Shown: positions 8,751 through 59,501 of the stretch, piece after piece | Layout of the letters: every line of letters begins with the position of its first letter | How positions within the stretch are numbered: position 1 is the first letter of the stretch | Program-made: the position numbers and the translations under genes | DNA from: Corynebacterium sp. ACRPS | GTDB taxonomy: Bacteria > Actinomycetota > Actinomycetes > Mycobacteriales > Mycobacteriaceae | Assembly: GCF_022346005.1 (NCBI RefSeq) | Contig: NZ_JAKRMY010000006.1 | Coordinates: forward strand, 1-64,000 | Reading direction: 5' to 3' | DNA length: 64,000 nucleotides | The notes under the pieces: model-generated | The model's input: only the letters and a program-made list of their open reading frames with translations | What the model was told of the DNA's origin: nothing | Databases searched by the model: none

Positions 8751-9717
8751 ATCGGGCCCAGGGCGGGCGCCACACGATTCCTTCGTGCGGGCGGCGCTCT
8801 AAGCGCCCACGACGGGGCGAGGCATTCGGGTCATCGTCGTTAACGGAGTTGTGGTACTTGCAGGCGATGGTCAGGTTCTCGGCATTGGTCTCGCCGCCGA
8901 GCAGCCACGGTTGCAGGTGGTGAACCTGGCATTCATCGGCCGGAATATGGCAATCGGGCCACGGGCACACCGGATTTTCCGCCATCGCCATCTGCCGCTG
9001 CTTCCAGGTGGCCAGCCGGCGCGTGTGGTACAGGTTCACGGGACCGGTGACGGGGTGGATGAGGGTGATGAGGCCGGCATCGGCAAGCGCGCGCTCCGCT
9101 AGCTGCGCACCGGTGATGGTGGCGCCGTTGGTCAGCTGCAGGGTGACCTCGTCCTCGCCGTGGGTGACCTTCACCATGTCATCCAGGGTTAGGACCACGT
9201 TGGTGGTGATGGTGGAGGTAGCCGCGCCCTCTGCAAAGACCCGGCGCGCATCGTCCACGGTGGAGACGTGGTTATTAATCTCGGCCACCAAGTCCGATTC
9301 CGCGGTGATGGTCAGCGTCCACAGGTCATCGGTGCGGCGGGTGAGCCGGACGCCCTCCGCGCGCTTCTGGGTGCGTTCCTCCTTGACGCGGCGGCGGGCG
9401 CGCTTTTCTATCTCGCTGGTAGAAACGTTGAGCCGGCACAGCTCCTCGCGCAGGGCCCACGCCGCGCGCTGGGTCTTCAGCTTCTGCGCGTGCACCTCAA
9501 TGATTTTCAGCGCATCGAGCGGGAGCGCGGTTTTGCGGGCGGCGCGCTGCTTGGCGCTAAACGATGTCCTACCAAAATACGTATCCGCCAAGCGCGCGAA
9601 TTCCGCGGCCTCTTTATCGCTGAAACCGCGGTCTACCAATTCGGCTTCGGATAGCCCGGCGCACTCCCCGATGAGCGCCATCGGGGAGTTTATCGCTGCG
9701 AGGTAATCCGAAATCAT
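8749..9717 (-). CDS. HNH endonuclease signature protein, DUF222/13E12 type
   Basis: This 322-residue protein has a helical DUF222-like N-terminal part and a C-terminal HNH module with CPWPDCHIPADECQVHHL, WLLGGETNAENLT and CKYHNSVNDDDPNASPRRGRL. Proteins of this type are multi-copy in actinobacteria, are often linked to mobile elements, and lack a settled role. I used the ATG at 9717 because it aligns with the start of a paralogue at 24780 and has a TAGGCT box exactly 7 nt upstream. The longer frame to 9822 adds non-homologous residues. It is convergent with metX. Confidence 0.8.
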   Translation of the reverse strand: MISDYLAAINSPMALIGECAGLSEAELVDRGFSDKEAAEFARLADTYFGRTSFSAKQRAARKTALPLDALKIIEVHAQKLKTQRAAWALREELCRLNVSTSEIEKRARRRVKEERTQKRAEGVRLTRRTDDLWTLTITAESDLVAEINNHVSTVDDARRVFAEGAATSTITTNVVLTLDDMVKVTHGEDEVTLQLTNGATITGAQLAERALADAGLITLIHPVTGPVNLYHTRRLATWKQRQMAMAENPVCPWPDCHIPADECQVHHLQPWLLGGETNAENLTIACKYHNSVNDDDPNASPRRGRLERRPHEGIVWRPPWAR

Positions 9718-9724
9718 GGCCCCG

Positions 9725-9730
9725 AGCCTA
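9725..9730 (-). promoter_or_regulatory. -10 box of the first HNH gene, leaderless start
   Basis: TAGGCT on the minus strand is separated from the ATG at 9717 by 7 nt. The same arrangement precedes its paralogue. Confidence 0.45.
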
Positions 9731-9832
9731 AACCGCAGGTAGCGGCGGGCGCGAGGCCAAGAGTGCTGCGGCTGTGGATAACCACGCGACACGCCGCAGA
9801 TTGGTGATACTGAAACAATCACCTGTGGATAA

Positions 9833-10147
9833 CTAGCTGCCCAGCGCGTCCACGGAGTAGGCGAGAAAGGCCATCAGCGCGCCGATGACGCCTGTAAACG
9901 TGGCATCGAAGCGGCGCGAGCGCACCGCCAGCACGCCGACGCGGCTCGAATCGCACGTCAGGCGCACCACCGTCAGCCACAGCAGCGCAAGCCCGAGCAA
10001 AAAGGTGGCCCTGCGCCAATACTCGAAAATGGCGTAGCCGCCGGACAGGGCCACCCCGGCGATGAAGAGCCCGATGGCCACCCACTGCACGGAGGCGGGC
10101 AGCGGGGACGGTGTCAGGTGCGCGTCGTGGGGATTGTCTAAATTCAC
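9833..10147 (-). CDS. DUF3017 family membrane protein
   Basis: This 104-residue protein has three predicted membrane segments (about residues 20-38, 46-63 and 82-100) and matches the small DUF3017 proteins that follow folD in actinobacteria. The GTG start overlaps the folD stop as GTGA, which implies translational coupling. The function is unknown. A basic loop, [14 protein letters not shown], lies between the last two segments. Confidence 0.8.
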
Positions 10148-10992: not shown

Positions 10993-10999
10993 AGCCCCC

Positions 11000-11009: not shown

Positions 11010-11015
11010 GAAGGC

Positions 11016-11486: not shown

Positions 11487-12786
11487 GTTCTGGCAGGTCG
11501 CGGGAGCGCAGGCGGTTGAGGAGGGCGTGGGCATCGGCAAGCGCGAGGTTGCGCGCCGCCATCTTGACGGGCCCCTGCACGAGGTCGAGCTCCACCGTGG
11601 CCAGGCCGAATAGCTGGGAAATCGGGCCGCGGCGCAGGGTGAGCTCCTGAATGTGGCGCAGCTCGATGGCCTGGACGCGGCGGTTGAAGCGGCCGGCGCG
11701 CACGATGACGTAGTCGCCGGCCAGCGCGACGGTTTGCTGCCGGTAATCGATGGGCGAGACCCATTTGGCGCGCGCGGGCGAGGCGTAGGTCGGGGCGGCA
11801 TCGGCGGGCAGGAATTGCCGGGCTTGCTCGCGCTTGCCGACGGGCACGATCCGCGTCGACCCCGATCCCTCGCCGCTGGCCGTGCCACCGTAGCCGGCGA
11901 CCGACACGCGCGTTTCGTACCAGCCGAAGGGCCGCCACAGGAACGGCTGGGTGACCTGGACGGCGTGGATGCGCTCGAGGCGGATGTTTTGGCGGCGGCG
12001 ATCGGCAAGGCCGTAGGTGATATTGAGCACGTCATCATCAAGGCTGGCGGTGTAGCGCCACGAGGAGTCAATCACGTTCCAGGCGCGCGGGACAGTAGCC
12101 AAAAGGATGGGCAGCGTGATGGTCAGGGACATCGGCGTGACCACGAGGAAGATGAGGGCCGCAAGCAGGACGATCGTGGACGCGTGCAAGGCGGCCGCGG
12201 CCAGGGAACGCGCGATGGGGATTTCGGGGATGAGGACGTTGTCTTCCCCCTCGGCCAGCTGTTCCTCAGCTGGCCGCTCTTCAACTGGCTGCTCTCGCGG
12301 CTCACCGTGGACTCGGGAGAGGATTTCGGCGCGCAGGGCCTCGGCATCGCGCTTTGTCAGGAAGGCGATTTCGATGGCAGACGACTGCCCGCCGGCCGTT
12401 TCCACGCGCACGGCCGCGAGCCGAAAGAGGCGGGCGATAACGGGCTCGACGACGTCTACAGCCTGCGTGCGGTCATAGCGTGCCGTGCGCTGCTGCTTCG
12501 AAATAACCCCGCGGCGCAAGGTGAGTTCCTCCTCGCCCAGCTGGTAGCCCATCTGGCGCCACCACACGCCAGAGACGAGCCAGACCACCGCGCACACTGC
12601 GATGAACCCGGCCAGCGCGAGGCCAATATCGCGCAGGTCTGCCGCACTGTGTTCCCCGGTAACGAAGGCAAAGATTCCGCGCAGCGCCTCCATATTGACG
12701 TTTAAGGCAAATGCTGCGATGACGGCCAGGATGACCGACCACAGCCGCAGCAACGGGGTCAAGCGGTGGACGCGGTGGTACTTCAT
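11470..12786 (-). CDS. PH domain (bPH_2/DUF304) membrane protein, YdbT-like
   Basis: This 438-residue protein has several membrane segments (two near the N terminus, two around residues 200-240) and repeated bacterial PH-like modules, seen as QMGYQLGEEELTLRRGVISK, RYTASLDDDVLNITYGLADRR and ALAGDYVIVRAGRFNRR. The architecture matches Bacillus YdbT, whose partner YdbS is encoded upstream here as well. I start at MKYHRVHR because its ATG overlaps the stop of the upstream gene as ATGA; the longer frame adds a basic Pro-rich tract without homology. Function is not established. Confidence 0.85.
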   Translation of the reverse strand: MKYHRVHRLTPLLRLWSVILAVIAAFALNVNMEALRGIFAFVTGEHSAADLRDIGLALAGFIAVCAVVWLVSGVWWRQMGYQLGEEELTLRRGVISKQQRTARYDRTQAVDVVEPVIARLFRLAAVRVETAGGQSSAIEIAFLTKRDAEALRAEILSRVHGEPREQPVEERPAEEQLAEGEDNVLIPEIPIARSLAAAALHASTIVLLAALIFLVVTPMSLTITLPILLATVPRAWNVIDSSWRYTASLDDDVLNITYGLADRRRQNIRLERIHAVQVTQPFLWRPFGWYETRVSVAGYGGTASGEGSGSTRIVPVGKREQARQFLPADAAPTYASPARAKWVSPIDYRQQTVALAGDYVIVRAGRFNRRVQAIELRHIQELTLRRGPISQLFGLATVELDLVQGPVKMAARNLALADAHALLNRLRSRDLPELTPLP

Positions 12787-13244
12787 AGCCCGCTCATCCG
12801 TTCGCGGGCGTGGTGGGTGAGGCGGGTGCGGAGGGCATCGGCAAGCGGGGCTTCCAAACCCTTCACCGTGGCGTCCGTGGTTGCGGAGGCGGTGTGCAGC
12901 TGCAGCTCCTTGAGCCCGAAGGCGCGCTCGAGGGGGCCGGCGGTCACGTCCACGAACTGGATGCGGCCGTAGGGCACGACGGTGAAAGAATGCCACAGCT
13001 TGCCGCGCGTAATGAGCAGCTCATCGTCGGTTTCGCACCAGCCCATCCGGCGCACCTGGGCGGGGATGAGCCAAAGCAGCCAGAAAAAGAGGACGGCGAA
13101 GAGCCCCGCCGCCCAGTAGAACCACGGGGTCCACCAGTACCCTGCCGCTGCGGCCGCCGCGGCGAAGATAATCGTCCAGCCCAGGTGGCGGATGTAGCGC
13201 ACCTTAACCAAACGCGGCGAGACGGGGTTCATTTCTTCGCTCAT
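12783..13244 (-). CDS. PH domain membrane protein, YdbS-like
   Basis: This 153-residue protein has two adjacent membrane segments (about residues 24-65) followed by one bacterial PH domain (MGWCETDDELLITRGKLWHS, PYGRIQFVDVTAGPLERAFGL). It resembles YdbS and forms a coupled pair with the larger downstream protein. The start was set at MSEEMNPVSPR because upstream residues do not look coding. It diverges from the DUF2975 gene. Confidence 0.85.
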   Translation of the reverse strand: MSEEMNPVSPRLVKVRYIRHLGWTIIFAAAAAAAGYWWTPWFYWAAGLFAVLFFWLLWLIPAQVRRMGWCETDDELLITRGKLWHSFTVVPYGRIQFVDVTAGPLERAFGLKELQLHTASATTDATVKGLEAPLADALRTRLTHHARERMSGL

Positions 13245-18728: not shown

Positions 18729-19766
18729 GTGGCAGATTCCACCCAGAACGGCACTCGCATCGAGTTCCGCAATATCACCAAGGTCTTCCAGCAGAAAAAG
18801 GCCGAGGTCAAAGCTCTTGACGATGTCTCCTTGACCGTCGATTCCGGCGAAATCATCGGCATCATCGGCTACTCCGGCGCCGGCAAATCCACCCTGGTCC
18901 GCATGATCAACGGCCTGGACACGCCCACCTCCGGCGAATTGCTGCTCGATGGCCAAAATATCGTCGGCATGTCCGAAAAGAAGCTGCGCGGCATCCGCCG
19001 CAATATCGGCATGATCTTCCAGCAGTTTAACCTCATGAACTCCCGCACTGCGGCGGGCAATATTGAGTACCCGCTGCAGCTGCAGGGCATCGGCAAGCGC
19101 GAGCGCCAACAGCGCGTGCAGGAGCTGCTGGATTTCGTTGGACTGGGAGATAAGGGAAAAAGCTACCCGGAGCAGCTTTCCGGCGGCCAGAAGCAGCGCG
19201 TGGGCATCGCGCGCGCCTTGGCCACGAATCCGTCGCTGCTGCTTGCCGACGAAGCCACGTCCGCCCTCGACCCCACCACCACGCAGGAGGTCCTCGACCT
19301 GCTGCGCCGGGTGAATAAGGAGCTCGGCATCACCATCGTGGTCATCACCCACGAAATGGAGGTCGTGCGCTCCATCGCGGATAAGGTTGCGGTGATGGAA
19401 AATGGCCACGTCGTGGAGCAAGGCAGCGTCTACCAGGTCTTTTCCAATCCCCAGACCGCCGTGGCCGCCAAGTTCGTCGCCACCTCGTTGCGCAATGAGC
19501 CCGACGTGGTGGAAACCGATGACCTGCTTGCCCACGAAGGCCGCCTGTTTACCATCAACCTGACCGAGGAATCCGGCTTTTTCGGCGCCGCCGCCAAGCT
19601 GAAGGATGCGGGCGTATCCATCGCCGTCGTCCACGGCGGTATTACCACCTTGCAGCAGCACTCCTTTGGCAAGCTCACCGTGCGCTTGAGCGGCGACGAC
19701 GCCGCCATCGAAGAGTTCTACCGCGCCCTATCTGCCACCACTCAAATTGAGGAGATTGAACGATGA
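18729..19766 (+). CDS. metN: Methionine ABC transporter, ATP-binding protein
   Basis: This 345-residue ATPase powers methionine import. It shows Walker A GYSGAGKST, the Q-loop MIFQQFNLM, the signature LSGGQKQR, Walker B LLLADEATSALD and the switch histidine ITHEME. A C-terminal NIL/ACT-like domain (about residues 265-345) is the site where methionine inhibits transport in this family. The GTG at 18729 is chosen because AAGGA lies 8 nt upstream. Its end overlaps metI as ATGA. Confidence 0.94.
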   Translation: MADSTQNGTRIEFRNITKVFQQKKAEVKALDDVSLTVDSGEIIGIIGYSGAGKSTLVRMINGLDTPTSGELLLDGQNIVGMSEKKLRGIRRNIGMIFQQFNLMNSRTAAGNIEYPLQLQGIGKRERQQRVQELLDFVGLGDKGKSYPEQLSGGQKQRVGIARALATNPSLLLADEATSALDPTTTQEVLDLLRRVNKELGITIVVITHEMEVVRSIADKVAVMENGHVVEQGSVYQVFSNPQTAVAAKFVATSLRNEPDVVETDDLLAHEGRLFTINLTEESGFFGAAAKLKDAGVSIAVVHGGITTLQQHSFGKLTVRLSGDDAAIEEFYRALSATTQIEEIER

Positions 19767-20443
19767 ACGTCAACTATCTCGCCGCCGCCGACTGGGACCG
19801 CTTGGGCGGATCGCTTGTCGATGCCATCGTCGACACCCTCATCATGGTCTCGACCACCCTCGTCGTCGCCGGCATTCTGGGCCTAGGGCTCGGCATCTTG
19901 CTCTATACCGCCCGCCCGGGCGGCATCCTGCAGAATAAGGCCGTCTACCTGGTGGTCAACCTGCTGGTGAACTTCGTTCGTCCCATCCCGTTTATTATTT
20001 TGCTGGCGTTTGCGCAGCCGCTCACCGTCGCCGTGATGGGCGGGTCCATCGGCCGCGAGCCGGCCACCTTCGTGATGGTCATCGCCGCCACGTTCTCCGT
20101 AGCGCGCGTGGTGGAACAAAACCTCGTGGCCATCGACCCAGGCGTTATCGAGGCCGCCCGCGCCATGGGCGCTTCACCGTGGAAGATCATTACCTCCGTA
20201 ATCATTCCGGAGGCCCTCGGCCCGCTGATTCTGGGCTATACCTTCCTGTTTATCGCCATCGTGGATATGTCCGCCATGGCCGGCTACGTCGGCGGCGGCG
20301 GACTGGGTGACTTCGCCATCGTCTACGGCTACCGCGCCTTCGAGTGGGAAGTCACCGTCGTGGCCACGCTTATCATCATCGTGCTGGTGCAGGCCGCGCA
20401 GTTCTTCGGCAACTGGCTCTCCTCCAAGGTTATGCGCCGCTAA
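19763..20443 (+). CDS. metI: Methionine ABC transporter, permease
   Basis: This 226-residue integral membrane protein has five predicted membrane segments and the EAA loop EAARAMGASPWKIITSVIIPEAL, which contacts MetN. It is translationally coupled to metN and ends 14 bp inside the convergent sucrase/ferredoxin-like gene. Size and topology match MetI. Confidence 0.94.
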   Translation: MNVNYLAAADWDRLGGSLVDAIVDTLIMVSTTLVVAGILGLGLGILLYTARPGGILQNKAVYLVVNLLVNFVRPIPFIILLAFAQPLTVAVMGGSIGREPATFVMVIAATFSVARVVEQNLVAIDPGVIEAARAMGASPWKIITSVIIPEALGPLILGYTFLFIAIVDMSAMAGYVGGGGLGDFAIVYGYRAFEWEVTVVATLIIIVLVQAAQFFGNWLSSKVMRR

Positions 20444-21970: not shown

Positions 21971-23499
21971 TACGTCGCCTCCACGCGCCAGCGCCCCTCT
22001 GACCACACCAAGAGCCAGGCGCGCTGGCGTTGCTCCCGCTCAGCCTGGCCCACAATTTGTAGCCGCGCCGCGTGCTGCGGCTTTTCGGTCCACCACTGCG
22101 TATCCACCGGCCACGGGCCAGCCCAGCCGATGACGCGGTAGCGGTGTGCGCCCCACCCGAGCGCCACGGGTACAGAGGATAGGAGGGCCTCGGCGGTGAC
22201 GATGACGTCCCGCGCGGCGGCATCGATAAGCCGAATGCGCGCGGCCGGGTGGTTCGGCCCACCGCCTAGGCGCGCGGGAAGCGGCGCGGGGAGCCTGCCC
22301 GGCCAGCTGCCTTGCGGCGTGGCATCGCGCTGCTCCCCATAGGGAACGTACTCGATACGCTCGGCCACCCCGCGGCCACCGGCGGCCCGCGGCTGCAAGA
22401 CGCGATCTATGCCCAACTGCGATTGCACGCGCGAAATTACCCGCTTGACTTGTTCCTGTGAGGCATCCCCGCCCCATAGGCCATCGGCCTGCGGCCTAGC
22501 TACCTCCACAGGCTCGAGCACCAGCCGCACGATCGCGGCACCGTCCTTGCCGCTCGAACGCGCCGCCGTAAGCCACCCATCCAGCTGCCAGCGCACCCGG
22601 TTCGCGGTCGCTTGCTCCGTCAACGCCTCGTGCGTGCGCCATACCCGGGCCACAGTTTCACCAGTGGCCAGCTCCGCCACCACGCGCAGGCGCACGCACA
22701 CCACTTCCGCTTCCGCCAACCGCACGTGCAGCTGCGCGGCCAAGTGCCGAGCCACGAATGCCGCCGCATCCACGCGCTCGATGGATTGCTCGCTGCTCAC
22801 GGACAGATCAGGCCGCGCCATTTCCGGGGACACGCGCTGGTCCGCCCGCGCGTGCGCCACCTCATGCGCGCGTTTTCCCTGCTGCCCAAACCGGGTAACC
22901 ACCTGCTTAAACGGCAGCGCCGCCACATCACCCAGCCGGCGCACGCCCAATTTCTGCAGCTGGGCCACAAACTCCGCAGAAAACCCCAGCGCGGCCTCCG
23001 CGGCTAAAACACTCACGGGCTGGGCAGCCAAGAAATCCCGCGACTCTCCCTCCGGCACCACCGCGCCTACCCCGCGGTGCCGAGCCGCGATGATGGCCGT
23101 GGCAATCTCGTCTGCCACACCAAGGGTGGAATCAAAACCGGCGTGCGCGGTGGCATCGGCAAGCATCTCCAACGCCTCCGGCCCGTGGTAGCGCAGCGCC
23201 GCCCCCGCATCCACGATGGCCAGGCCGGGCCGCAGCACCTCTACGGACGAGGCCACGGCATCCAAGCCCGCCGCAATCTCCGCGAAGGCCGCGCCGTCCC
23301 TATCCGGGTTCGCCTCCATCACCTTTACCTCAGGGCAAATCGCTTGGGCCTGGCGCAGGCGCATCCCGCGCCGAATGCCGGCCCGGCGCGCCGCGCTATC
23401 GCAGACCAGCACCGCATGATTGCGCGCAACCAGCACCGGCCCCGCCTGCGCAACCGCCTGAATGGGCCAATCCGGAAACCACACCGCAGCCACCCTCAT
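21967..23499 (-). CDS. imuB: ImuB, catalytically inactive Y-family polymerase homologue
   Basis: This 510-residue protein bridges DnaE2 to the beta clamp in the mutasome. It starts VAAVWFPDWPIQAVAQAG, so the acidic catalytic residues of active Y-family polymerases (DMDAF type) are missing, as in ImuB. The rest shows the thumb (FAAQLQKLGVRRLGDVAALP-like) and little finger. The clamp-binding motif region reads PQADGLWGG, with a weak match to the QLPLWG type. The ATG overlaps the imuA' stop as ATGA. It is convergent with the lipoprotein gene. Confidence 0.88.
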   Translation of the reverse strand: MRVAAVWFPDWPIQAVAQAGPVLVARNHAVLVCDSAARRAGIRRGMRLRQAQAICPEVKVMEANPDRDGAAFAEIAAGLDAVASSVEVLRPGLAIVDAGAALRYHGPEALEMLADATAHAGFDSTLGVADEIATAIIAARHRGVGAVVPEGESRDFLAAQPVSVLAAEAALGFSAEFVAQLQKLGVRRLGDVAALPFKQVVTRFGQQGKRAHEVAHARADQRVSPEMARPDLSVSSEQSIERVDAAAFVARHLAAQLHVRLAEAEVVCVRLRVVAELATGETVARVWRTHEALTEQATANRVRWQLDGWLTAARSSGKDGAAIVRLVLEPVEVARPQADGLWGGDASQEQVKRVISRVQSQLGIDRVLQPRAAGGRGVAERIEYVPYGEQRDATPQGSWPGRLPAPLPARLGGGPNHPAARIRLIDAAARDVIVTAEALLSSVPVALGWGAHRYRVIGWAGPWPVDTQWWTEKPQHAARLQIVGQAEREQRQRAWLLVWSEGRWRVEATY

Positions 23500-24779: not shown

Positions 24780-25838
24780 ATGAACGCACTCGAGACCTAC
24801 CTCACCGCCCTCGCGCCCGGCATGGATATCATCGCCGCGTGCCGCGGTCTATCTGGGTCTGAGCTCATGGAGCGCGGCGCGCCCGATACCATCGCCGCCG
24901 ACCTGCTCCTTTTGTGCGAAAGCTACTACGGCCGCACCGCCTTTAGCCGGATGCAGCGCCGCGCCATTGCCGATGCCCGCACCAACGCCCACCCCATTGC
25001 CCTCCTCGCCGGCATCGAGCGCGTGGTTAATCGCGCGCCCAGCAAGAAGCAGGCGTGGGAGCTGCGCGCGGAATGCTGTGCGATGTCCGCGGAGATGAGC
25101 GCCATTATCAAACACGCCCGGCGCCGGGTGCGCGAGATGAAAAAGTCCACGGTCAGCCCCGGCGTGCGCACCTATCGGCGCCCCAATGACTACTGGACGC
25201 TCGCCATTACGGGTACCTCCCGCTTCATTGCGGATCTGCAGGGCGCGATTACGGCCGCCGATAAAAAGCCGCTGCAGGCGGTGGAAGATATCTTCTTCGG
25301 TACAGGCAGCGCCGCGCGTTCCACGGTGGTCACCAACGCCGTCGTGCCGCTGGAGAAATTCATTCGCATTCGCGATGGCCACGGCGACGACGTGCAGCTC
25401 GATCTCACCAATGGCGCGACCATGTCCGGAACCGAGTACCTGCGCCGCGTGCTTAACGATGCCGGCTATTCCGCCCCCGGCCTCAGCGGCAGCGGTGACG
25501 GTGAAACGGGCTATGTCACCCTCGTACATCCGGTGGAGGGGCCGGTCAACCTCTACCGCACGGCGCGCGTGGCCACCGATAAGCAGAGGATGATGGCGGC
25601 CGCGGAAAATCCGCGCTGCGCCTGGCCCGGATGCAATCAGCCGGCCGATTTATCCCAGGTCCACCACCTCACGGCCTGGAGCCGCGGTGGGGAGACCAAT
25701 ATGAACAACCTCGTCGTGTGCTGTGCTTACCACAACGGCATCAACGACGACGATCCCAATGCCCCGCCCCGGCGCGGGCGGCTAGAAAGAGTGGGCGGTC
25801 GCATCGTCTGGCGGCCACCGGTGACACCCCGTAACTAG
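24780..25838 (+). CDS. HNH endonuclease signature protein, DUF222/13E12 type
   Basis: This 352-residue protein is a paralogue of the one at 8749-9717, with the same order: helical N-terminal part (CRGLSGSELMERG), central ARRRVREM region, then the HNH module CAWPGCNQPADLSQVHHLTA, WSRGGETNMNNLV and YHNGINDDDPNAPPRRGRL. The two differ along most of their length, so this is not a recent duplication. Role unknown. The start is fixed by alignment with the paralogue and by the TAGCGT box. A bidirectional terminator separates it from guaA. Confidence 0.8.
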   Translation: MNALETYLTALAPGMDIIAACRGLSGSELMERGAPDTIAADLLLLCESYYGRTAFSRMQRRAIADARTNAHPIALLAGIERVVNRAPSKKQAWELRAECCAMSAEMSAIIKHARRRVREMKKSTVSPGVRTYRRPNDYWTLAITGTSRFIADLQGAITAADKKPLQAVEDIFFGTGSAARSTVVTNAVVPLEKFIRIRDGHGDDVQLDLTNGATMSGTEYLRRVLNDAGYSAPGLSGSGDGETGYVTLVHPVEGPVNLYRTARVATDKQRMMAAAENPRCAWPGCNQPADLSQVHHLTAWSRGGETNMNNLVVCCAYHNGINDDDPNAPPRRGRLERVGGRIVWRPPVTPRN

Positions 25839-25901: not shown

Positions 25902-27476
25902 TTACTCCCACTCGATGGTTCCCGGTGGCTTGGAGGTGCAATCCAAGACCACGCGGTTGACGTCCTTAACCTCGTTGGTGATGCGGGTGGAGATCTTCTC
26001 TAGCACGTCATACGGCAAGCGGGTCCAGTCCGCGGTCATGGCATCCTCGGAAGATACCGGGCGCAGCACGATGGGGTGGCCGTAGGTGCGGCCATCGCCT
26101 TGGACGCCGACGGAGCGGACATCGGCAAGCAGCACGACCGGGCACTGCCAAATCTCCTCGTCCAAGCCGGCGTTGGTCAGCTCGGTGCGGGCAATCAGAT
26201 CCGCCTGGCGCAAGGTCTCGAGGCGATCCTCGGTAACCTCACCAATGATGCGGATGCCCAGGCCGGGGCCTGGGAAGGGCTGGCGGCCGACGATCTCTTC
26301 CGGCAGGCCCAACTCGCGGCCCACCGCGCGCACCTCGTCCTTAAAGAGTAGACGCAGCGGCTCGACGAGCTCGAACTCGACGTCATCTGGGAGGCCGCCG
26401 ACGTTATGGTGCGACTTAATATTGGCGGTACCGTCGCCGCCGCCGGATTCGACGACGTCCGGGTACAAGGTGCCTTGGACGAGGTAGTCGACGGTGGAGC
26501 CGGCGGGGGCATCGGCAAGCACGCCGGCCACGGCGCGCTCGAAGGAGCGAATGAACTCCGCACCGATAGCCTTGCGCTTTTCCTCGGGGTCGCTAACACC
26601 CGCCAGCTTCTTGAGGAAGGCCGAACGCTCGTCGGCAGTGACCAGCTTGGCGCCGGTCGAGGCCACGAAGTCAGTTTCGACCTGCTCGCGCTCGCCCGCG
26701 CGCAGCAGGCCGTGGTCGACGAAGACGCAGGTCAGGCGATCGCCGATGGCGCGCTGCACCAAGGCCGCGGCCACGGCAGAATCCACGCCGCCGGACAGGC
26801 CGCAAATAGCGCGGCCCTCCTCGCCTACTTGGGCGCGAATATCCGCGATGAGCTGCTCGGCGATATTATCGGCGGTCCAGTTTTGCTCCAGACCGGCAAT
26901 CTCCGTGAGGAAGCGGGTAAGCACTTCTTGGCCGTGCGGCGAGTGCAACACCTCTGGGTGGTACTGCACGCCGGCCATCTGCTTGGCCGGGCACTCCATC
27001 GCGGCGACGGGGGCGCCGGCGGAGGTAGCGGTTACGTCGAAGCCCTCGGGGGCGGCGGCGACGGCGTCGCCGTGGGACATCCACACCTTGTGCGTGGGCT
27101 CGAGGCCCTCGTGCAAGATGCCGCCCTTGACGTCGATATCGGTGCGGCCGTATTCACGCTCACCGGTAGACGATACGGTACCGCCGAGAATGTGGTTCAT
27201 GGCCTGGAATCCGTAGCAAATGCCGAAGACCGGAACGCCAAGCTCTAGCAGCTCAGGCTTGAGCGCCGGGGCGCCGTCGGCATAGACGGACGACGGGCCG
27301 CCGGACAAAATGAGCGCGGCGGGGTCCTTGGCTTTGATTTCCTCGATGGAGGCGGAGTTGGAAACAACCTCGGAGTAGATTTTGGCCTCGCGCACGCGGC
27401 GGGCAATGAGCTGCGCGTACTGAGCGCCAAAGTCCACGACGAGGACTGGGCGCAGGGTAGTATTTGGCTTAGTCAC
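25902..27476 (-). CDS. guaA: GMP synthase (glutamine-hydrolysing)
   Basis: This 524-residue enzyme aminates XMP to GMP. The glutamine amidotransferase domain (residues 1-200) has the nucleophile in [12 protein letters not shown] and the catalytic HPEVLHSP. The ATP-pyrophosphatase domain has [12 protein letters not shown], and the C terminus ends with the conserved [16 protein letters not shown] box lies 7 nt before the GTG start and no ribosome binding site is visible. It lies 191 bp downstream of guaB3; that gap holds no recognisable gene. Confidence 0.96.
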
Positions 27477-28826: not shown

Positions 28827-30359
<1,533 letters not shown>

Positions 30360-33345: not shown

Positions 33346-34974
<1,629 letters not shown>

Positions 34975-38052: not shown

Positions 38053-38641
38053 GGTTGGCCTCCTGGAGCTCAATGATGCGGTCGGCGGCCTCTGCGGCGA
38101 GGTGCGAGTGGGTCACCATGACCACCGCGGCCCCACCCCGTGCGGCGGTGCGGAGGTGGGTGAGGACGAGCTGGGCGGTGGCATCGTCAAGCGCGCCCGT
38201 GGGCTCATCAGCAAAGATATACGGCGCACCGGCCAGCAAGGCGCGCGCAACGGCGACGCGCTGCTGCTGACCGCCGGACAGCTGCGCGGGCAGGCGGCGC
38301 TCCAGCCCGTCAAGCCCCAAAGACTCGAAGGTCTTCTGCACCGCGTCCCGGGTGCAGCGCCGGCCGGAAAAGTGCGCGGTCAACGTGGCATTTTTGCGGG
38401 CGTTGAGCGATTCCAGCAGGTTATAGTCCTGGAATACGAAGGCGCGCTCTGTGCGGGCCGGCGCGTTGACCGTGCCGGAACTGGGCTTATCCAGCCCGGA
38501 TAGCAGGTTCAACAGCGTGGTCTTGCCGCTGCCGGATGGCCCCATAATCGCGACAAATTCCCCCGGCTCGATGCTTAGGTCCACCTCGGCGAGTGCGGTA
38601 TGGCTGCCGTAGCGCTTGCTCAGATTTTGTGCTTTTAACAT
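38036..38641 (-). CDS. ABC exporter ATP-binding protein (LolD/MacB type)
   Basis: This 201-residue ATPase shows Walker A GPSGSGKTTL, the Q-loop FVFQDYNLLESL, signature LSGGQQQRVAVARAL and Walker B YIFADEPTGALD, typical of the MacB/BceA class. The start is uncertain: ATG 38641 (MLKAQNL) aligns best with the family, and ATG 38650 is an alternative. It pairs with the overlapping permease and diverges from the sensor kinase. Confidence 0.88.
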   Translation of the reverse strand: MLKAQNLSKRYGSHTALAEVDLSIEPGEFVAIMGPSGSGKTTLLNLLSGLDKPSSGTVNAPARTERAFVFQDYNLLESLNARKNATLTAHFSGRRCTRDAVQKTFESLGLDGLERRLPAQLSGGQQQRVAVARALLAGAPYIFADEPTGALDDATAQLVLTHLRTAARGGAAVVMVTHSHLAAEAADRIIELQEANHAGVA

Positions 38642-42676: not shown

Positions 42677-43347
42677 AGGCGCACCTCTGGAATGGCCGCA
42701 GAAAGCTGCTGCTTTTTGGGCGGGACCGCATCGGGGCGACGCAGGTACCTGGGCACGAACGGCGCCGGATCCGCGTCAAGCCGCGCGACGGCCACCAGGC
42801 CCTCGGCGGTGGGTGCGGCCTCGCTGCGTGGCAGCGCGGCGAGTTCTTCCGGCAGCTGGTCGGCCAGCTTCTCAGGGATTACCACCTGCGCGATATCCTG
42901 CACAGAAAGCTCCCCCGGCTTCGATACGTCTGGGCCAGCCAGGCGTTGCCCCGCGCGGTAGGTGGCCCAATAAATTTCCTTGCGGCGGGCATCGGTGGCG
43001 ACCAGCGCCGCGTCCTTTTCCTCGGCCCCCGCTAACGCGGCGTGCGCGATGGCATCGTGGGTGCAGACGCCGTGGAGGGGGATGGAGAGGGCATCGGCAA
43101 GCGCCTGCGCCGTGGCCATGCCGACGCGCAAGCCGGTAAAGGGGCCAGGGCCCACGCCCGCCACGATGGCATCGAGGTTGCCGAGCTCCAGGCCGGCCTC
43201 GCTCATCACCTCGAGGATGGTGGGCATGAGCCGTTCATTATGCGCGCGCGTATCGGCCAGAACGCGCTGCGTCAGCTGCCCAGACTCGGTGTCGACTACC
43301 CCGGTGACCAGGGCGGTCGTCGCCGTATCGATGGCCAGGACGCGCAT
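42673..43347 (-). CDS. tsaB: tRNA t6A biosynthesis protein TsaB
   Basis: This 224-residue paralogue of TsaD acts as its scaffold in the t6A complex. It begins VLAIDTATTALVTGVVD and contains the conserved GPGPFTGLRVGMATAQALADAL. I set the start at 43347 because the ATG overlaps the upstream stop as TAATG. Confidence 0.93.
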   Translation of the reverse strand: MRVLAIDTATTALVTGVVDTESGQLTQRVLADTRAHNERLMPTILEVMSEAGLELGNLDAIVAGVGPGPFTGLRVGMATAQALADALSIPLHGVCTHDAIAHAALAGAEEKDAALVATDARRKEIYWATYRAGQRLAGPDVSKPGELSVQDIAQVVIPEKLADQLPEELAALPRSEAAPTAEGLVAVARLDADPAPFVPRYLRRPDAVPPKKQQLSAAIPEVRL

Positions 43348-49503: not shown

Positions 49504-52308
49504 TTAGCGGGTAGCGCGCTCCAGCATCTCCAAGACGTGGTGATAATCCTCGCCGGTGGCGCGGGTCATGCCCAGCTCACACGTGCGGTTAGTAGAGGCG
49601 TGATACTGCGCGCCCAGCTCCGTGACCTGGGCGGCCTCAGCGCGGGTGGCGGACTCCGTGAGCTCCGGGTGGAGCATGCCGCGGTCGCCGGCATAACCAC
49701 AGCAATTCCAGGCCGTGGGGATGTGCACCTCCGAGGCCGCGGCCCGGGCGACCTTTTCAACATCGCCCATCATGCCGAGCTGGAACGCCGAACAGGTTGG
49801 GTGAATCGTCATAGAATCCACCGGCTGGGTGGTCTCGAGGCGCGGTAGCAGCGTATCGGCAGTAAAGCTCAGCGCATCGATGACGGTAATGCCAATGGAT
49901 TCCAGCATCTCCTGAAAGCCCGCGGTACAGCTGGAAGCATCCACGATCACGGGCAGGCGGGCGTTATCTGTGGCCTCCATGATGCTCTCGCGCACGCGCT
50001 GCTCCATGATGTCGTGGCCCTTGCGCATGCCCTTTGAGGACCATGGCGTTCCGCAGCAGAGCTTCTCGATGCCCCTGGGCACCTCCAGCGCGATCCCCGC
50101 CCTCTCCAAGACGGTAATGAAGGCCTCCGTGGCACCCATGCCCTCACCTTGCGGGGCGAACATGGAGTTTACGCAGGCTGGAAGATAGATTCCCGCGGTC
50201 TCTGCATAGCGATCTCCCACGCGCCCGGCCAAACGCTCGCGGGACTTGCCACCCTTGCCTAGCTCCGGCTGGTATCCGGGCACGGTATCGGGGCCGACGA
50301 GCGAGCGGGCCACATCGGTGACCTTCGTGACCAACTGCGCCGGCAACATGTGCGCGCCGGTGAGCGCCGTTGCGGCACCGCGGCTGGTGAACTGCCAATT
50401 CTTGGCGGCAGTAAACCAGACCTTTTCTTCGGCGGCCCCGGCATTCTCGTGGCGCAGCTTCTTGATGAATTTACCGGTATCAATGCCCACTGGGCAGGCG
50501 GTTAAACACATAGAATCCACGGCGCACGTATCGATGCCCATGTACTCATAAGCCTCATCGAGTTCTGCAACCAAGTGCGTATCGCCGCTTTCTTGCGCCC
50601 GCTGGCGGGCACGGCGCACCACGATGCGCTGGCGCGGGGTCAAGGTGAGGTCCCTCGACGGGCAGACCGGCTCGCAATAGCCGCACTCAACGCACGGGTC
50701 GATTTCCTCTTCCACCGTGGGGTTGAGCTTGATATTCGTAATGTGCGCATCGGGGTCATCGTCCAGAATCACACCCGGGTTCATCGTGCCAGCGGGATCG
50801 CAGGCGCGCTTGAGCAGCTGCATGACCTCGTAGAGCTCATCGCCGTACTGGCGGCGCACATACGGGGCCATGGCGCGGCCGGTGCCGTGTTCGGCCTTGA
50901 GGTTTCCCTCTGCCGAAAGCACCAAGTCCACCATTTCCTCATTGAAGTTGTTATAGCGACCAATGGCGCTATCGCCTTCGAAGCGGTCCGTTAGAAGGAA
51001 GTGGATATTGCCGTCTTTCGCGTGGCCGAAAATGACCGCATCGTCGTAAGAATAGCGGGTAAAAAGCTCCTGCAAGGAGGAACAAGTATCGGCCAAATCG
51101 CCCACCGGCACCACAACGTCTTCCAATAGCGCCGTGGTTCCGGAGGGCCTCGCTTCTGCCACCTGGGCATACAGGCCCTTGCGGAAGTTCCACGCGGCGG
51201 TGCGGGTGGGAATATCGGCAGAAAATTCCGCCGGTGATTGCAGGTCCAATTCGCGCAATAGGGACGAGCCCTTGTGTTCTTTTTCCCGCAGCTCTTCTTT
51301 GTCATCGGATTGGTACTCGATGAGCAGCGCGGCCTGCGAATCCACATCGAAGCCGGTAATGGCCTGCGGGACCTTATCGAATCCTTGGCCCACGCGAATG
51401 GAGGCAGAATCCATCAGCTCCAGGGTGGCGGCACCGGTATCCACCAGGGAAGGTAACGCCTTCGTAGCGGCGGAGAGATCGTTAAAGACCGCCACAGTGG
51501 TCGTCGTGAGGGCTGAGATGTGCACGGTGCGAAAGACCGCTTCCGCGATAAACGCCAAGGTTCCTTCGGAGCCAACCAAGAGGTGTTCAAAGAGCTTGAC
51601 GGGGCTATCAAAATCCAGGAAGGAATTAAGCCCGTAGCCCATCGTATTTTTCAGCTTGAAGTGGCGGCGGATGATATCTACTGATTCCTGGTTATCGCGC
51701 ACGCGGCGCTGCAGGCGGGTCAGCGTATCCACCAGCTCGGGTTCTTGTGCTTGGAATTGCCGGTCCGCATCCGCGTCCGCGGTATTGATCACCGTGCCGG
51801 AAGGCAAGACAAAGGTCAGCGATTCCAAGGTGTTATAGGTATTGAACTCGGTGCCGCAGGCCATGCCGGAGGAATTATTCGCCACCACGCCGCCGATGGT
51901 GCAGGCCGCCTCGCTCGCCGGGTCCGGGCCGAGCTTGCGGTTGCGCAGCCCCAAAAGCGCATTGACTTGGCGCACGGTCGCCCCTGGCTGCACGCGTACC
52001 CGCTTGCCGTCATCGAGGACTTCTATGCCCCGGAAATGCTTGCGCACATCCACTAAGTAACCCTCGCCGGAGGCCTGACCTGCCAGGGAGGTACCGCCCG
52101 AGCGCAAGGTCACCGGAATACCTTGCTGCCGCCCCGCCTTGAAAATGGCGGCCACGTGTTCTGCCGAACGCGCTTCAATAACGGCCTTCGGGGTGTAGAG
52201 GTAGTGCGAGGCATCGGAGGCATAGGCCACTCGGTCGATGATGCCGGTCTTTACCTCCGGTCCATCCTGCGGAAACAATTGGTCGATCGTGAGGGTGCCG
52301 GTAGTCAT
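49504..52308 (-). CDS. FAD-linked and 4Fe-4S oxidoreductase, D-lactate dehydrogenase type
   Basis: This 934-residue fusion has an N-terminal FAD-binding PCMH domain (VTLRSGGTSLAGQASGEG, TIGGVVANNSSGM), a FAD-oxidase C-terminal domain with EHGTGRAMAPYV, then two 4Fe-4S motifs (CVECGYCEPVCPS, CAVDSMCLTACPVG) and two CCG domains (CCGTPWSSKGM, WNCCGYAGDRGM). The GlcD-GlpC-like layout matches membrane-associated D-lactate or D-2-hydroxyacid dehydrogenases feeding the quinone pool. The exact substrate is not settled by sequence. The ATG at 52308 has AGGCAGG about 9 nt upstream. Confidence 0.87.
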   Translation of the reverse strand: MTTGTLTIDQLFPQDGPEVKTGIIDRVAYASDASHYLYTPKAVIEARSAEHVAAIFKAGRQQGIPVTLRSGGTSLAGQASGEGYLVDVRKHFRGIEVLDDGKRVRVQPGATVRQVNALLGLRNRKLGPDPASEAACTIGGVVANNSSGMACGTEFNTYNTLESLTFVLPSGTVINTADADADRQFQAQEPELVDTLTRLQRRVRDNQESVDIIRRHFKLKNTMGYGLNSFLDFDSPVKLFEHLLVGSEGTLAFIAEAVFRTVHISALTTTTVAVFNDLSAATKALPSLVDTGAATLELMDSASIRVGQGFDKVPQAITGFDVDSQAALLIEYQSDDKEELREKEHKGSSLLRELDLQSPAEFSADIPTRTAAWNFRKGLYAQVAEARPSGTTALLEDVVVPVGDLADTCSSLQELFTRYSYDDAVIFGHAKDGNIHFLLTDRFEGDSAIGRYNNFNEEMVDLVLSAEGNLKAEHGTGRAMAPYVRRQYGDELYEVMQLLKRACDPAGTMNPGVILDDDPDAHITNIKLNPTVEEEIDPCVECGYCEPVCPSRDLTLTPRQRIVVRRARQRAQESGDTHLVAELDEAYEYMGIDTCAVDSMCLTACPVGIDTGKFIKKLRHENAGAAEEKVWFTAAKNWQFTSRGAATALTGAHMLPAQLVTKVTDVARSLVGPDTVPGYQPELGKGGKSRERLAGRVGDRYAETAGIYLPACVNSMFAPQGEGMGATEAFITVLERAGIALEVPRGIEKLCCGTPWSSKGMRKGHDIMEQRVRESIMEATDNARLPVIVDASSCTAGFQEMLESIGITVIDALSFTADTLLPRLETTQPVDSMTIHPTCSAFQLGMMGDVEKVARAAASEVHIPTAWNCCGYAGDRGMLHPELTESATRAEAAQVTELGAQYHASTNRTCELGMTRATGEDYHHVLEMLERATR

Positions 52309-52497
52309 ATGCGGCGACCTGCCTTCCCAGAGAAGCATAGAAAATGTTACCTAGTGCACATTTTCGCCTGGTTTCTCGACAGTGCGCAAGTAAGGCAACC
52401 CATAGAACTTCGGTGCCGCGCACCCCTTTTGGCCTCCCCGAATCCCCCGCATGTGCCACTCGCCACCCCTTGCCACCAGCACGGGGTGATCTTCATC

Positions 52498-53366: not shown

Positions 53367-53645
53367 CTATCCACGTCGCAGCACAGATTTCACCTGCCCC
53401 GATGCGTTATTGACACGCGTTGGGGCAGCACTATTTCGGCGCCACGTTCCAGCAGCTGCTTGCCGATGCCCCACCGCATCACCGTCTCTTCCCCCACGCT
53501 GCTCATTTTTGGCCTGCTGTACGGCCTTGGCCGTGGACTTTTCTAGCTCGTCTTGGGCCTTCGCCAGGCTTTTTTCAAATTCCAACATGCGTCGCGCGGT
53601 GCGCTCGCGAAACCCCTGCGCGAATTCTGCAAAATCGTTATTCAT
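53367..53645 (-). CDS. Small helical protein, third gene of the ESX-linked cassette (probable frameshift)
   Basis: The first 46 residues (NNDFAEFAQGFRERTARRML and following, to AVQQAK) form an amphipathic, coiled-coil-like helix rich in Glu, Lys and Ala. The ATG overlaps the stop of the 576-residue gene as TAATG. After an AAAAA run at 53506-53510 the current frame changes to poor codons (AGA, GGA, AGT). A second frame, 53390-53506, starting at ATG 53506 and running through GEETVMRWGIGKQLLERGAE, keeps G/C-rich third positions. A one-base insertion in the A run, programmed slippage, or two genes would explain this. Function unknown. Confidence 0.5.
   Translation of the reverse strand: MNNDFAEFAQGFRERTARRMLEFEKSLAKAQDELEKSTAKAVQQAKNEQRGGRDGDAVGHRQAAAGTWRRNSAAPTRVNNASGQVKSVLRRG
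53458..53469 (-). repeat. Copy of the 12-mer GCATCGGCAAGC, minus orientation
   Basis: One of only two exact copies in the minus orientation. It lies in the frame-shifted part of the small helical gene. Confidence 0.5.
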
Positions 53646-57142: not shown

Positions 57143-57324
57143 CCCTGTAAGTCCCACCCGTTGCATGTTTGGGGCATCGACAAGCGAGCTAATTAGGTAA
57201 CCAACATCACGAAAAATGTCCTTGTGATGAAAAGCAAAATTTGCTTAAAGTAGTACTTTTTGGCATTTATATGAAATTATTAGCTAGGTTATACTTCACT
57301 CTTTTGCCTTAGAGAGGATCAACG

Positions 57325-59250
57325 ATGAACGAACCTAGATCTTCAGGTGACAAGTCACCTGAAACTACCTCGCAGAAGGCACGGTCAGCCATTGCGAAAG
57401 CCGCTTCTGGGGAACGCGCTATTCATCCAGCCCTCATTCCCGGAGTAAGTGTCGAAAACACCCGCGCCGATTTTAAGACCAATAAAACGGTCTTTGCGGT
57501 GGCGTTGGCATCAACCTTTGCCGTTATCCTGTGGGCCATCATCGCCCCAGATAATCTGGCTAGCACAGGAAGTACCATGCGGGCGTGGGTCGTCCAAAAC
57601 TTTGGATGGCTATTTACGATCATCATGATTGCCACCACGGCATTCCTGCTGACGATCGCTATCGCCCCAACCGGCAAAATTAAGCTCGGCGCCGATGATT
57701 CCAAGCCCGATTTCTCCCGCAACGCATGGATCGCCATGCTCTTTGCCGCTGGTATGGGAATCGGCCTGGTCTTCTACGGCCCGATGGAGCCGCTTGCCCT
57801 ATTCTTGACTCCCCCGCCGTATCTTTCCGGCGTCGAATCCGGCAGCCAGGAGGCCATCCTTCCGGCCTTTGCCCAAGCAGTACTTCACCACGCTACGTTG
57901 CCGTGGATGATCTTTGCACTGGTGGGCGGCGCGCTTGCCTATGCCGCTTATCGACGCGGCCGTATCCCGCTTATTTCCTCGCTCTTTGAACCCCTCATTA
58001 CGGATTCGAATAACCGGGTATTTGGAAAGATCGTCGATATCTTCGCGGTTTTGGTCACCCTCTTCGGCACGGCTACCTCCCTGGGTATCGGTGCGCTGCA
58101 GATCCGCACGGGTACCTCGATCCTTACCGGCAAGCCTTTAGAGGGCAACGGAATCATGGTGGTGATCATTACGATCCTCACCATCCTTTTCATTCTTTCC
58201 GCGATGTCCGGCATCAAGCGCGGCATCCGCATCCTGTCCAATATCAACATGGGCTTGGTCATCGGCCTCGCGGTCTTCGTTCTCATCACTGGGCCGACGC
58301 TCTACATCCTGGATCTGATTCCCGCCTCCCTGCTGCAGTTTTTCAAGCACTTCGAAGACATGATGTCCCTGTCCGCCTCCCAGGGTGAACCAGAAAAGGA
58401 ATTCGTCACCGCATGGACCATGCTGTACTGGGCGTGGTGGATTTCTTGGTCGCCCTTCGTCGGTATGTTTATTGCGAAGATTTCCCGCGGGCGCACCATT
58501 CGCGAATTCGTCTTCGTCATCATGCTCGTGCCTACCACCCTGTCGCTTTTCTGGTACGTCATCTTTGGTGCCACGGCTATCAAGACTCACCTGGATGGAG
58601 ACGGAATCGAGATTGAAGGTTCCGGCGAGAATGTGATGTTCGATCTCATGAGATCGCTGCCGCTATCTAGCATCACCACGGTCATCGTCCTCCTCGCTGT
58701 GGTCGTCTTCTTCAATACGGCTGCTGACTCCGCTACCAACGTCATGGGCTCCATGTCCCAATCAGGCCGACCAATTCCCTCGACGTCGATTTCCGTTATT
58801 TGGGGCGTTGCCCTAGGTGGCATTTCCTTGTCCCTGCTGCTCATCGCCGGCAAGGATGCCCTGAGCGGCCTGCAGTCCATCATGGTCTCCAGTTCGCTGC
58901 CGTTTACCTTCATCCTCATCGGCATCATGGTGGCGTGGGGCAAGGACTTGGCACGCGACCCTGCAATACTGCGCAGGAAATACGCCCATGCCGCCATTGA
59001 GCGCGGCACCCACTTGGGCCTCCAAGAACACAACGGTGACTTCGTATTCAGCTCTTCCGCCGTTCCAGAAGCCCACGGTGCCGGGGCAGAAATTGAAAAC
59101 GATGACCCGTACCTCCACGAGTGGTACACCATCAACGCATCGGATGAATACCTCGCAGAGCAGGCAGCCCTCCGCGAAGAGCGCCGCGCCGAGCTCAAGA
59201 ACTTTGCAAAGAAGAAAACCGAGGACAAGGCCGCAGAAGACGATGAGTAA
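57325..59250 (+). CDS. BCCT family compatible-solute transporter
   Basis: This 641-residue sodium-coupled importer has 12 predicted membrane segments flanked by hydrophilic N- and C-terminal extensions (about 60 and 95 residues). The family core WTMLYWAWWISWSPFVGMFI, then ISRGRTIREFV, and GMGIGLVFYGPMEP is clear. The long charged C-terminal tail resembles the osmosensing tail of corynebacterial BetP, EctP and LcoP. The substrate (betaine, ectoine, proline or carnitine) is not determined. AGAGGA lies 6 nt before the ATG, and the upstream region is A+T-rich with TATACT at 57290-57295. Confidence 0.92.
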   Translation: MNEPRSSGDKSPETTSQKARSAIAKAASGERAIHPALIPGVSVENTRADFKTNKTVFAVALASTFAVILWAIIAPDNLASTGSTMRAWVVQNFGWLFTIIMIATTAFLLTIAIAPTGKIKLGADDSKPDFSRNAWIAMLFAAGMGIGLVFYGPMEPLALFLTPPPYLSGVESGSQEAILPAFAQAVLHHATLPWMIFALVGGALAYAAYRRGRIPLISSLFEPLITDSNNRVFGKIVDIFAVLVTLFGTATSLGIGALQIRTGTSILTGKPLEGNGIMVVIITILTILFILSAMSGIKRGIRILSNINMGLVIGLAVFVLITGPTLYILDLIPASLLQFFKHFEDMMSLSASQGEPEKEFVTAWTMLYWAWWISWSPFVGMFIAKISRGRTIREFVFVIMLVPTTLSLFWYVIFGATAIKTHLDGDGIEIEGSGENVMFDLMRSLPLSSITTVIVLLAVVVFFNTAADSATNVMGSMSQSGRPIPSTSISVIWGVALGGISLSLLLIAGKDALSGLQSIMVSSSLPFTFILIGIMVAWGKDLARDPAILRRKYAHAAIERGTHLGLQEHNGDFVFSSSAVPEAHGAGAEIENDDPYLHEWYTINASDEYLAEQAALREERRAELKNFAKKKTEDKAAEDDE

Positions 59251-59300
59251 TCTCTCCGCCTAACCGGACCTCTCCCCTAGGCCCTAGGCCCTCGGTCCCT

Positions 59301-59356
59301 AGCCCGTCTCCATCGCACTGCGCATTAGCGCTTCCCGCGATGAGAGGCGGGCTTTT
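59301..59356 (+). terminator. Terminator of the BCCT transporter gene
   Basis: The arms AGCCCGTCTCCATCGC and GCGATGAGAGGCGGGCT pair with small bulges and are followed by TTTT. Confidence 0.75.
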
Positions 59357-59490
59357 CTCTGTTCCTACAGTCCGTGGTGCGCTGCGGCGTGAGGGCGCTT
59401 CATCGCGCCCTCGACTGAGCGCTTATGCCTCACGCACGGCTAAGCCTCAAGAGGCTGGCCAAGCGGGGTTTGGCCGGCCCAATCGGAGGG

Positions 59491-59501
59491 GCATCGGCAA
59501 G
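59491..59501 (+). repeat. Intergenic near-copy of the 12-mer
   Basis: GCATCGGCAAG (11 of 12 positions), preceded by GGG as at 49463. It lies just past the rpsI terminator. Confidence 0.45.

Follow-up and report, generated by a model that had tools for sequence, protein, structure and literature searches.

The closest described counterparts of the repeated motif considered here, a 12-mer (GCATCGGCAAGC) and the 13-mer that contains it (GGCATCGGCAAGC) in Corynebacterium sp. ACRPS, are the DNA uptake sequences (DUS) of Neisseria and the uptake signal sequences (USS) of the Pasteurellaceae. The motif was noticed in the window, by which the whole analysed stretch of 64,000 nucleotides is meant (assembly GCF_022346005.1, contig NZ_JAKRMY010000006.1, positions 1 to 64,000), and it was found to be a DNA-level signal that occurs in species dialects and is probably a functional analogue of such sequences. 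To our knowledge, no uptake-sequence system has been described before in Gram-positive bacteria. The USS, mostly located in genes, numbers hundreds to more than 1000 copies; its near-copies are numerous, its core is strict and its flank weaker. The Corynebacterium motif resembles it in copy number, near-copies, strict core with weaker flank and mostly genic location, whereas its sequence is unrelated, its host belongs to another phylum, and its flank is G-rich on the 5' side and, in the form carried by genomes G010 and G015, A-rich on the 3' side. FtsK-orienting polar sequences (KOPS) and Chi are also short chromosome-wide motifs, each read by one protein; the Corynebacterium motif shares their chromosome-wide occurrence but displays no polarity or orientation bias. 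Inverted pairs at terminators, which are typical of Neisseria and were not taken as defining, are rare in Corynebacterium, and the neisserial pilus with ComP as receptor has the tad/Flp pilus as its candidate counterpart.

In the available text of the respective papers, one USS orientation is favoured within genes, as for the Corynebacterium motif (PMC2346458), and the DUS is likewise short, over-represented in genes and between them, and divided into dialects around a small invariant core (PMC3630211). The sequences differ, with GC[A/G]TCG..AAGC in Corynebacterium and a CTG shared by the neisserial dialects, and exact copies number 200–393 against thousands for the DUS (PMC3630211). Micrococcus luteus is, like the host of the window, an actinobacterium with tad and comEA/comEC loci; according to the available text, its transformation requires tad genes and the combination of tad with ComEA/ComEC is frequent in actinobacteria (PMC4322843). 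Two tad clusters are needed there, whereas the window genome gave one T2SSE match, and the term 'uptake sequence' is absent from the available text of that paper (PMC4322843). No account of uptake sequences in Corynebacterium was found in the literature searched, most subscription journals and all bioRxiv preprints lying outside the search. The 13-mer was absent from the same literature; its reverse complement appeared in work on chicken cartilage cells and the 12-mer in work on other subjects, as judged by titles. The available text of a paper on C. ulceribovis contains the words 'tad locus' (PMC4572677), and that of a paper on the C. tuberculostearicum complex, in which recombined sites were filtered, does not contain 'competence', 'pili' or 'tad' (PMC9927478).

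Abundance, coding background and distribution of the motif

A recount of the window returned exactly the 11 copies of the 12-mer, nine in plus and two in minus orientation, that had been counted by eye in a preliminary description. With up to one mismatch, 29 copies were found, against a mean of 1.16 and a largest value of 4 in 100 dinucleotide shuffles. An extra G on the 5' side was present in 11 of 11 window copies and in 200 of 204 genome copies, and the resulting 13-mer GGCATCGGCAAGC is better taken as the definition of the motif. The whole window genome (2.40 Mb in 47 contigs) carried 204 copies of the 12-mer, 102 per strand, and none of the reversed control; the 9:2 bias of the window is due to local gene direction, seven of the nine plus-orientation copies lying in minus-strand genes.

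The relation of the motif to coding sequence was evaluated in a 464 kb genome sample composed of the window and further stretches, with a simple gene caller of our own (approximately 85% coding) whose gene calls and intergenic labels are approximate. Synonymous shuffles within 368 genes (200 rounds), in which the proteins and the codon usage of each gene were kept, gave a mean of 1.3 and a maximum of 4 copies of the 12-mer, compared with 32 copies seen, and a mean of 4.2 and a maximum of 10 copies of GGCATCGNNAAGC, compared with 83. In this sample, the null that keeps proteins and codon usage, of the kind named beforehand as a refuting test for the genome-wide count, was exceeded about 25-fold, and the over-representation was not refuted. 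Similarly, CTT-NNC-GAT-GCC was found to encode 74 of the 143 L-x-D-A peptides, with approximately 2.6 expected; for Leu the motif relies on CTT, although this codon is minor (12%), and the Leu-Ala-Asp-Ala (LADA) peptide itself was four times commoner than composition predicts. The exact 13-mer occurred 35 times, with 28 copies in the antisense LADA frame, four in other frames and three between genes. These three copies lie in about 68 kb of DNA labelled intergenic, and control words had no copy in the whole sample; the second test named beforehand, for an excess in intergenic DNA, did not refute the motif either. The motif is therefore a DNA-level signal and no by-product of codons or dipeptides.

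The recognition unit is GGC[A/G]TCG-NN-AAGC with a G-rich 5' flank, in the fuller form GGGGGC[A/G]TCG-(GC preferred here)-AAGC, that is, a core of ten fixed bases and one purine, plus flank. Matches to GGCATCGGCAAGC at 11 or more of the 13 positions numbered 285 in the 464 kb sample (7–19 for nine control words); over 200 kb of genome G053 there were 128 (controls 1–8). Their spacing was near random in both, with coefficients of variation of 1.03 and 1.01, respectively. The ten intergenic copies of G053, picked by their match to the 13-mer, had a longer consensus in common, approximately AGGGGGCATCGGCAAGCTA. In the same genome a G directly 5' of the 13-mer was present in 43% of the LADA-frame copies and in 86% of the others, which suggests that the flank is shaped by coding constraint. 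The preference at NN varied by genome, AT being frequent in G029 among the matches listed. Single motif sites can lie in predicted hairpins.

Across 101 Corynebacterium genomes, 28,536 copies of GGCRTCGNNAAGC were counted (14,267 forward and 14,269 reverse), compared with 762 of the reversed pattern. GGC[A/G]TCGNNAAGC was present at least once in all 101 and at least 100 times in 72 of them, with 743 as the largest number, and 22 of the 101 were motif-poor, with 31 copies or fewer (reversed control 0 to 17 per genome). The exact A-form was abundant in three of the 61 Corynebacterium genomes searched (200, 203 and 393 copies), and the G-form GCGTCGGCAAGC reached 231, 223 and 198 copies in others of the genus. 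In the same order outside Corynebacterium, the G-form GGCGTCGGCAAGC stayed at control level in 149 genomes (0–9 copies) and the A-form at no more than 6 in 40 genomes. Among the motif-poor genomes, G015 carried 44 copies of GTGGCGTCGAGAA and G010 was enriched in TGGCGTCG followed by A-rich DNA; both probably carry a more distant related form of the motif. De novo word searches in 100–120 kb samples of G014, G039 and G132, perhaps too small, gave no clear dialect.

Dialects at orthologous sites

A protein search placed the window genome in Corynebacterium, near C. tuberculostearicum; the closest named records were Corynebacterium sp. (97–98% identity over 944 residues), followed by C. tuberculostearicum SK141 and others (84–85%). 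The sites of the window are given below, all but the last in 13-mer coordinates, with their state in the loci of relatives (L001 to L008).

9076..9088, plus: exact GGCATCGGCAAGC, antisense in gene 8749-9717(-), Leu-Ala-Asp-Ala
11530..11542, plus: exact motif, antisense LADA, gene 11470-12786(-)
12834..12846, plus: exact motif, antisense LADA, gene 12783-13244(-)
19086..19098, plus: exact motif, sense, Gly-Ile-Gly-Lys, in gene 18729-19766(+), a metN-like ABC ATPase (product similar to methionine ABC transporter ATP-binding protein)
23152..23164, plus: exact motif, antisense LADA, gene 21967-23364(-)
26508..26520, plus: exact motif, antisense LADA, gene 25902-27476(-)
39383..39395, minus: exact motif, antisense LADA, gene 38817-39950(+)
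43090..43102, plus: exact motif, antisense LADA, gene 42673-43347(-); GGCGTCGGCAAGC at the orthologous site in L005-L008
45856..45868, plus: exact motif, antisense LADA, gene 45709-46209(-); not retained in L005-L008
49465..49477, plus: exact motif, intergenic, within a GC-rich hairpin predicted at the end of gene 49504-52338(-), 26 bases away; GGCGTCGGCAAGC in C. tuberculostearicum SK141 (L004)
53458..53470, minus: exact motif, between ORFs 52568-53344(+) and 53645-55375(-), covered by the smaller ORF 53410-54081; GGCGTCGGCAAGC in L004 and L007, GACGTCGGCAAGC in L005, L006 and L008
41667..41679, plus: variant GGCATCGTCAAGC; GGCGTCGTCAAGC in L007 and L008
63051..63063, plus: variant GGCATCGAAAAGC; GGCGTCGAAAAGC in L004 and L008
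41933..41945, minus: variant GGCATCGATAAGC, sense Gly-Ile-Asp-Lys; A retained in L005-L008, no dialect switch
50061..50073, minus: variant GGCATCGAGAAGC, sense Gly-Ile-Glu-Lys; A retained in L001-L008, no dialect switch, one core change in L003
28469..28481, plus: variant GGCATCGTCAAGC, antisense frame
29595..29607, plus: variant GGCATCGACAAGC, antisense frame
34318..34330, plus: variant GGCATCGTCAAGC, antisense frame
38180..38192, plus: variant GGCATCGTCAAGC, antisense frame
57173..57185, plus: variant GGCATCGACAAGC, on the start of gene 55786-57129/57183(-) or upstream of it; GGCATCGGCAAGC in L001 and L002, not retained in L005 and L006
32364..32376, minus: variant GGCATCGCCAAGC, intergenic by the approximate gene calls
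145..157, minus: variant GGCATCGGAAAGC
683..695, plus: variant GGCATCGACAAGC
1970..1982, minus: variant GGCATCGATAAGC
2636..2648, plus: variant GGCATCGCCAAGC
7406..7418, minus: variant GGCATCGGAAAGC
19813..19825, minus: variant GGCATCGACAAGC
22219..22231, plus: variant GGCATCGATAAGC
25451..25463, minus: variant GGCATCGTTAAGC
59491..59502, plus: near copy GCATCGGCAAGA, between genes 57325-59250(+) and 59586-60128(-), overlapped by ORF 59340-60170(+)

Most positions of the preliminary description stood; in 12-mer coordinates, 45854 was corrected to 45857, 28459 to 28470, 38182 to 38181 and 57173 to 57174. Its remark on reading frames was correct, since, of the nine copies that fall in called genes, eight run antisense and read Leu-Ala-Asp-Ala, the main frame, and the ninth (19086-19098) is sense and reads Gly-Ile-Gly-Lys. 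From its three intergenic sites, 49466 was upheld, no ORF of at least 120 aa covering it, and the other two became uncertain: 57173 falls on, or slightly upstream of, a gene start that is itself uncertain, and 59491, with one mismatch, counts as intergenic only if ORF 59340-60170, which overlaps it, is no gene. The copy at 53458, outside that list, lies between the larger ORFs and is covered by a smaller one that starts with TTG. The window gave no Rfam match at gathering score and no tRNA.

Species use dialects of the motif, chiefly GGCATCG or GGCGTCG. In genome samples, the ratio of A to G at the dialect base was 110:9 in the window genome, 78:2 in G053 and 2:18 in C. tuberculostearicum G104. 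In loci of the C. tuberculostearicum type that retain the motif, G stands in place of the A of the window genome at 41667, 43090, 49465, 53458 and 63051; at every one of these sites this holds for one or more of L004-L008. The motif was not kept at 45856 (L005-L008) and 57173 (L005 and L006). Two sites outside the larger ORFs also switched dialect; the intergenic copy at 49465 was kept in L001-L004 and the one at 53458 in L001-L004 and L007.

The comparison with G005, a complete genome of the G-dialect, covered 167,816 aligned bases of 292,337 (78% identity) and 49 sites of the window genome. The core was intact at 28 sites and had one change at 7, more changes at 9 and an indel at 5. Retention at 28 of 49 sites was far above the frame-matched background (11.5% of 47,394 windows; p about 2e-14). 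At the 28 sites with an intact core, the dialect base changed from A to G at 21 and from A to T at 1, and remained A at 2 and G at 4. The proportion of 21 in 23, from which the A-to-T site was omitted, exceeded the background of 509 in 1,364 Asp codons (0.373) changed from GAT to GAC, the substitution that the main frame requires, with a p value of about 1e-7 for sites pooled over frames. Additionally, 21 of 24 conserved Asp codons inside motifs went from GAT to GAC in G005, while overall Asp GAT usage differed little (0.56 in the window genome and 0.45 in G104). Such a concerted change is most naturally read as the work of a single trans-acting reader whose preference would have shifted. Whatever the reader protein may be, a one-base concerted change at about twenty orthologous sites in 168 kb marks a diverging DNA-recognition system.

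Uptake machinery and competing explanations

Near-copies, occurrence on both strands, origin by point mutation and dialects around a core all match the known uptake sequences, and for these reasons the motif is probably part of a DNA recognition sequence that works like one of them. What it has in common with DUS and USS is over-representation, orthologous retention with point changes, dialects and, in one complete genome, the lack of replication polarity. Under the proposed mechanism, one DNA-binding factor would read the motif, its preference having drifted between species, and this factor would be part of the DNA-uptake apparatus, a tad/Flp pilus with ComEA-ComEC. Cells would take up kin DNA carrying the motif, homologous recombination would spread the motif-bearing alleles by molecular drive, and the motif would survive coding constraint chiefly at places whose opposite strand reads Leu-x-Asp-Ala.

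The window genome contains a comEA-comEC-holA locus (ComEC matched by PF03772) and a tad locus with TadZ, TadA, TadB, TadC, a Flp-type pilin and two TadE-like proteins, named by resemblance (the ATPase was matched by PF00437). The two loci make uptake a plausible function. ComEC was found in all 101 Corynebacterium genomes and a TadA-type ATPase over the cut-off in 97. The TadA score correlated with the G-form count, the A-form being added for three genomes (Spearman 0.56, 97 genomes, phylogeny uncontrolled), and at least 100 copies were present in 67 of 75 genomes with 'strong' TadA compared with 3 of 22 with 'weak' TadA, by a cut set after the scores had been seen and with the four genomes without a scored TadA excluded. 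Between species of the A- and G-dialects, TadZ, TadC, the 107-aa TadE-like protein, ComEA and ComEC were 71–75% identical, and the comparison proteins topA, lepA, holA, rpsT and crp 86–96%.

ComEC open frames were short (443–481 aa) in the motif-rich genomes G000, G006, G053, G004, G005, G052, G122 and G141 (including L089:9042-10454) and measured 654–879 aa in the motif-poor G010, G015, G033 and G039; G056 (722 aa) and G019 (741 aa) break this pattern, being motif-rich. A link between the form of ComEC and motif abundance is possible. As to a possible depletion of the motif in foreign DNA, genes with the lowest codon scores had 0.47 sites/kb, compared with 0.67–0.74, but density also rose with GC content, from 0.33 to 1.04/kb. 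A search for plasmids with window positions 1-25000 found 35 matching records; of these, 30 were listed and not one came from Corynebacterium; one further plasmid search and one phage search gave no match.

Several observations weigh against the uptake interpretation. The sites at 41933 and 50061 stay A in the relatives, both being sense-frame sites where A to G would turn Ile into Val, and two A sites with an intact core were unswitched in G005. Opposite-strand pairs within 60 bases numbered only 3 among the 285 sites, inverted pairs thus being rare. The word GTGGCGTCGAGAA of the motif-poor G015 also occurred 20 times in G019 and 21 times in G144, both motif-rich. ComEC and TadA are present in motif-poor genomes too, so that the machinery alone does not predict the motif, and the apparatus is a weak criterion because ComEC is found in every genome. 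A weak TadA score goes together with 254–414 motifs in G008, G047 and G112, G021 (582 motifs) has only the first 172 residues of TadA, and G123 (725 motifs, 90% complete) gave no TadA match. With a post hoc cut, confounding by phylogeny and these exceptions, the co-occurrence with TadA was not leaned on. No receptor candidate was singled out among the tad and com proteins compared across dialects, and neither an uptake or transformation experiment on the motif nor a report of natural transformation for these species was found in the literature searched.

It is about as likely as not that an uptake-sequence system spans the genus Corynebacterium, its two clear dialects being joined by a probable third. 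In that reading, the sequence-specific receptor would be the tad/Flp pilus or a protein associated with it, and a change of dialect would restrict gene exchange between close species. If so, many Corynebacterium species, probably including common skin commensals, would be naturally transformable and would select kin DNA by sequence. Uptake-sequence biology would then reach beyond the two Gram-negative families known to have such systems, with a second independent case for the origin of such motifs and their dialects and a practical tag for genetic work.

The preliminary description had offered KOPS, Chi and uptake sequences as analogies, and the last was found to be the best fit of the three; the chromosome-polarity analogy failed. 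With coordinate 0 taken as the origin of the complete genome G006, the longer word GGGC[A/G]TCGGCAAGC[A/G] had 95 sites, split alike between the halves (21+/26- and 20+/28-; Fisher p = 0.84), and the strongest split among the rotations tried was 13+/28- and 28+/26-. Chi-type sites are usually short and orientation-biased, and repair helicases are widespread. A Chi-like recombination hotspot read by a double-strand-break repair helicase-nuclease, whose dialects would follow changes of the enzyme, is consistent with chromosome-wide, intragenic sites that are retained at orthologous places and change in concert, as expected for the site of one protein. Nevertheless, it is an unlikely explanation: the strands are equal (102:102) and the G006 halves alike, where Chi orientation is biased relative to replication, the core of ten fixed bases, a purine and a flank contrasts with the short Chi-type sites, and in the 149 genomes of the order outside the genus the exact G-form stays level with its control, though repair helicases are widespread.

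If the motif were bound by a nucleoid-associated or chromosome-organising protein, hundreds of sites on both strands with near-random spacing would be accounted for; this is quite unlikely as well, given the lack of polarity in G006, the near-random spacing in the samples, where a macrodomain protein would cluster its sites, and the 31 copies or fewer in roughly one genome in five, an oddity if the site served a housekeeping role. A KOPS-like polarity or segregation motif for FtsK, suggested by the 9:2 bias within the window, is very improbable, since KOPS orientation follows the replichore and the bias here tracks gene direction; the strand counts refute it as far as these genomes go. The footprints of a mobile element inserted many times could explain a repeated, species-patchy sequence and are equally improbable, the alignments refuting them with mostly gapless orthologous sites that differ by point changes, indels at 5 of 49 and the core in both species at 28 of 49. 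The chance that the motif is a by-product of codon usage or protein sequence, namely a common Leu-Ala-Asp-Ala tetrapeptide in preferred codons, is close to nil: the LADA frame of 28 of 35 exact copies and the four-fold excess of the peptide favour it, but it is refuted by the synonymous shuffles and contradicted by the minor codon CTT, the copies in other frames and between genes, and an Asp codon switch between species above background.

Second repeat and tandem repeats

A second repeat was found to be a hairpin element, CCCTTCGCGCTCACC-(about 35 variable bases)-GGTGAGCGCGAAGGG, in L014-L020 (G000:C11:112663-226233) and G006:C1:855269-1146240. The word GGTGAGCGCGAAGGG had been considered as a companion of the main motif and was rejected as such, belonging to this separate element. 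The arm GTGAGCGCGAAGG was confined in the complete genome G006 to 0.29 Mb of 2.47 Mb (26 of 26 copies), a cluster that possibly lies near the replication terminus, and in the window genome 21 of 22 copies were in one contig. Elsewhere, 21 copies were counted in G104, 17 in G105, 1 in G053 and none in G001 and G056. In two of the second-repeat hairpins, the loop contains a variant of the main motif. The window also contains a 46-base tandem repeat at 36694-36800 (2.3 copies, 88% matches) and low-complexity short tandem repeats of the GGTTCC/TTCCGG type at 53922-54026 and 62405-62448.

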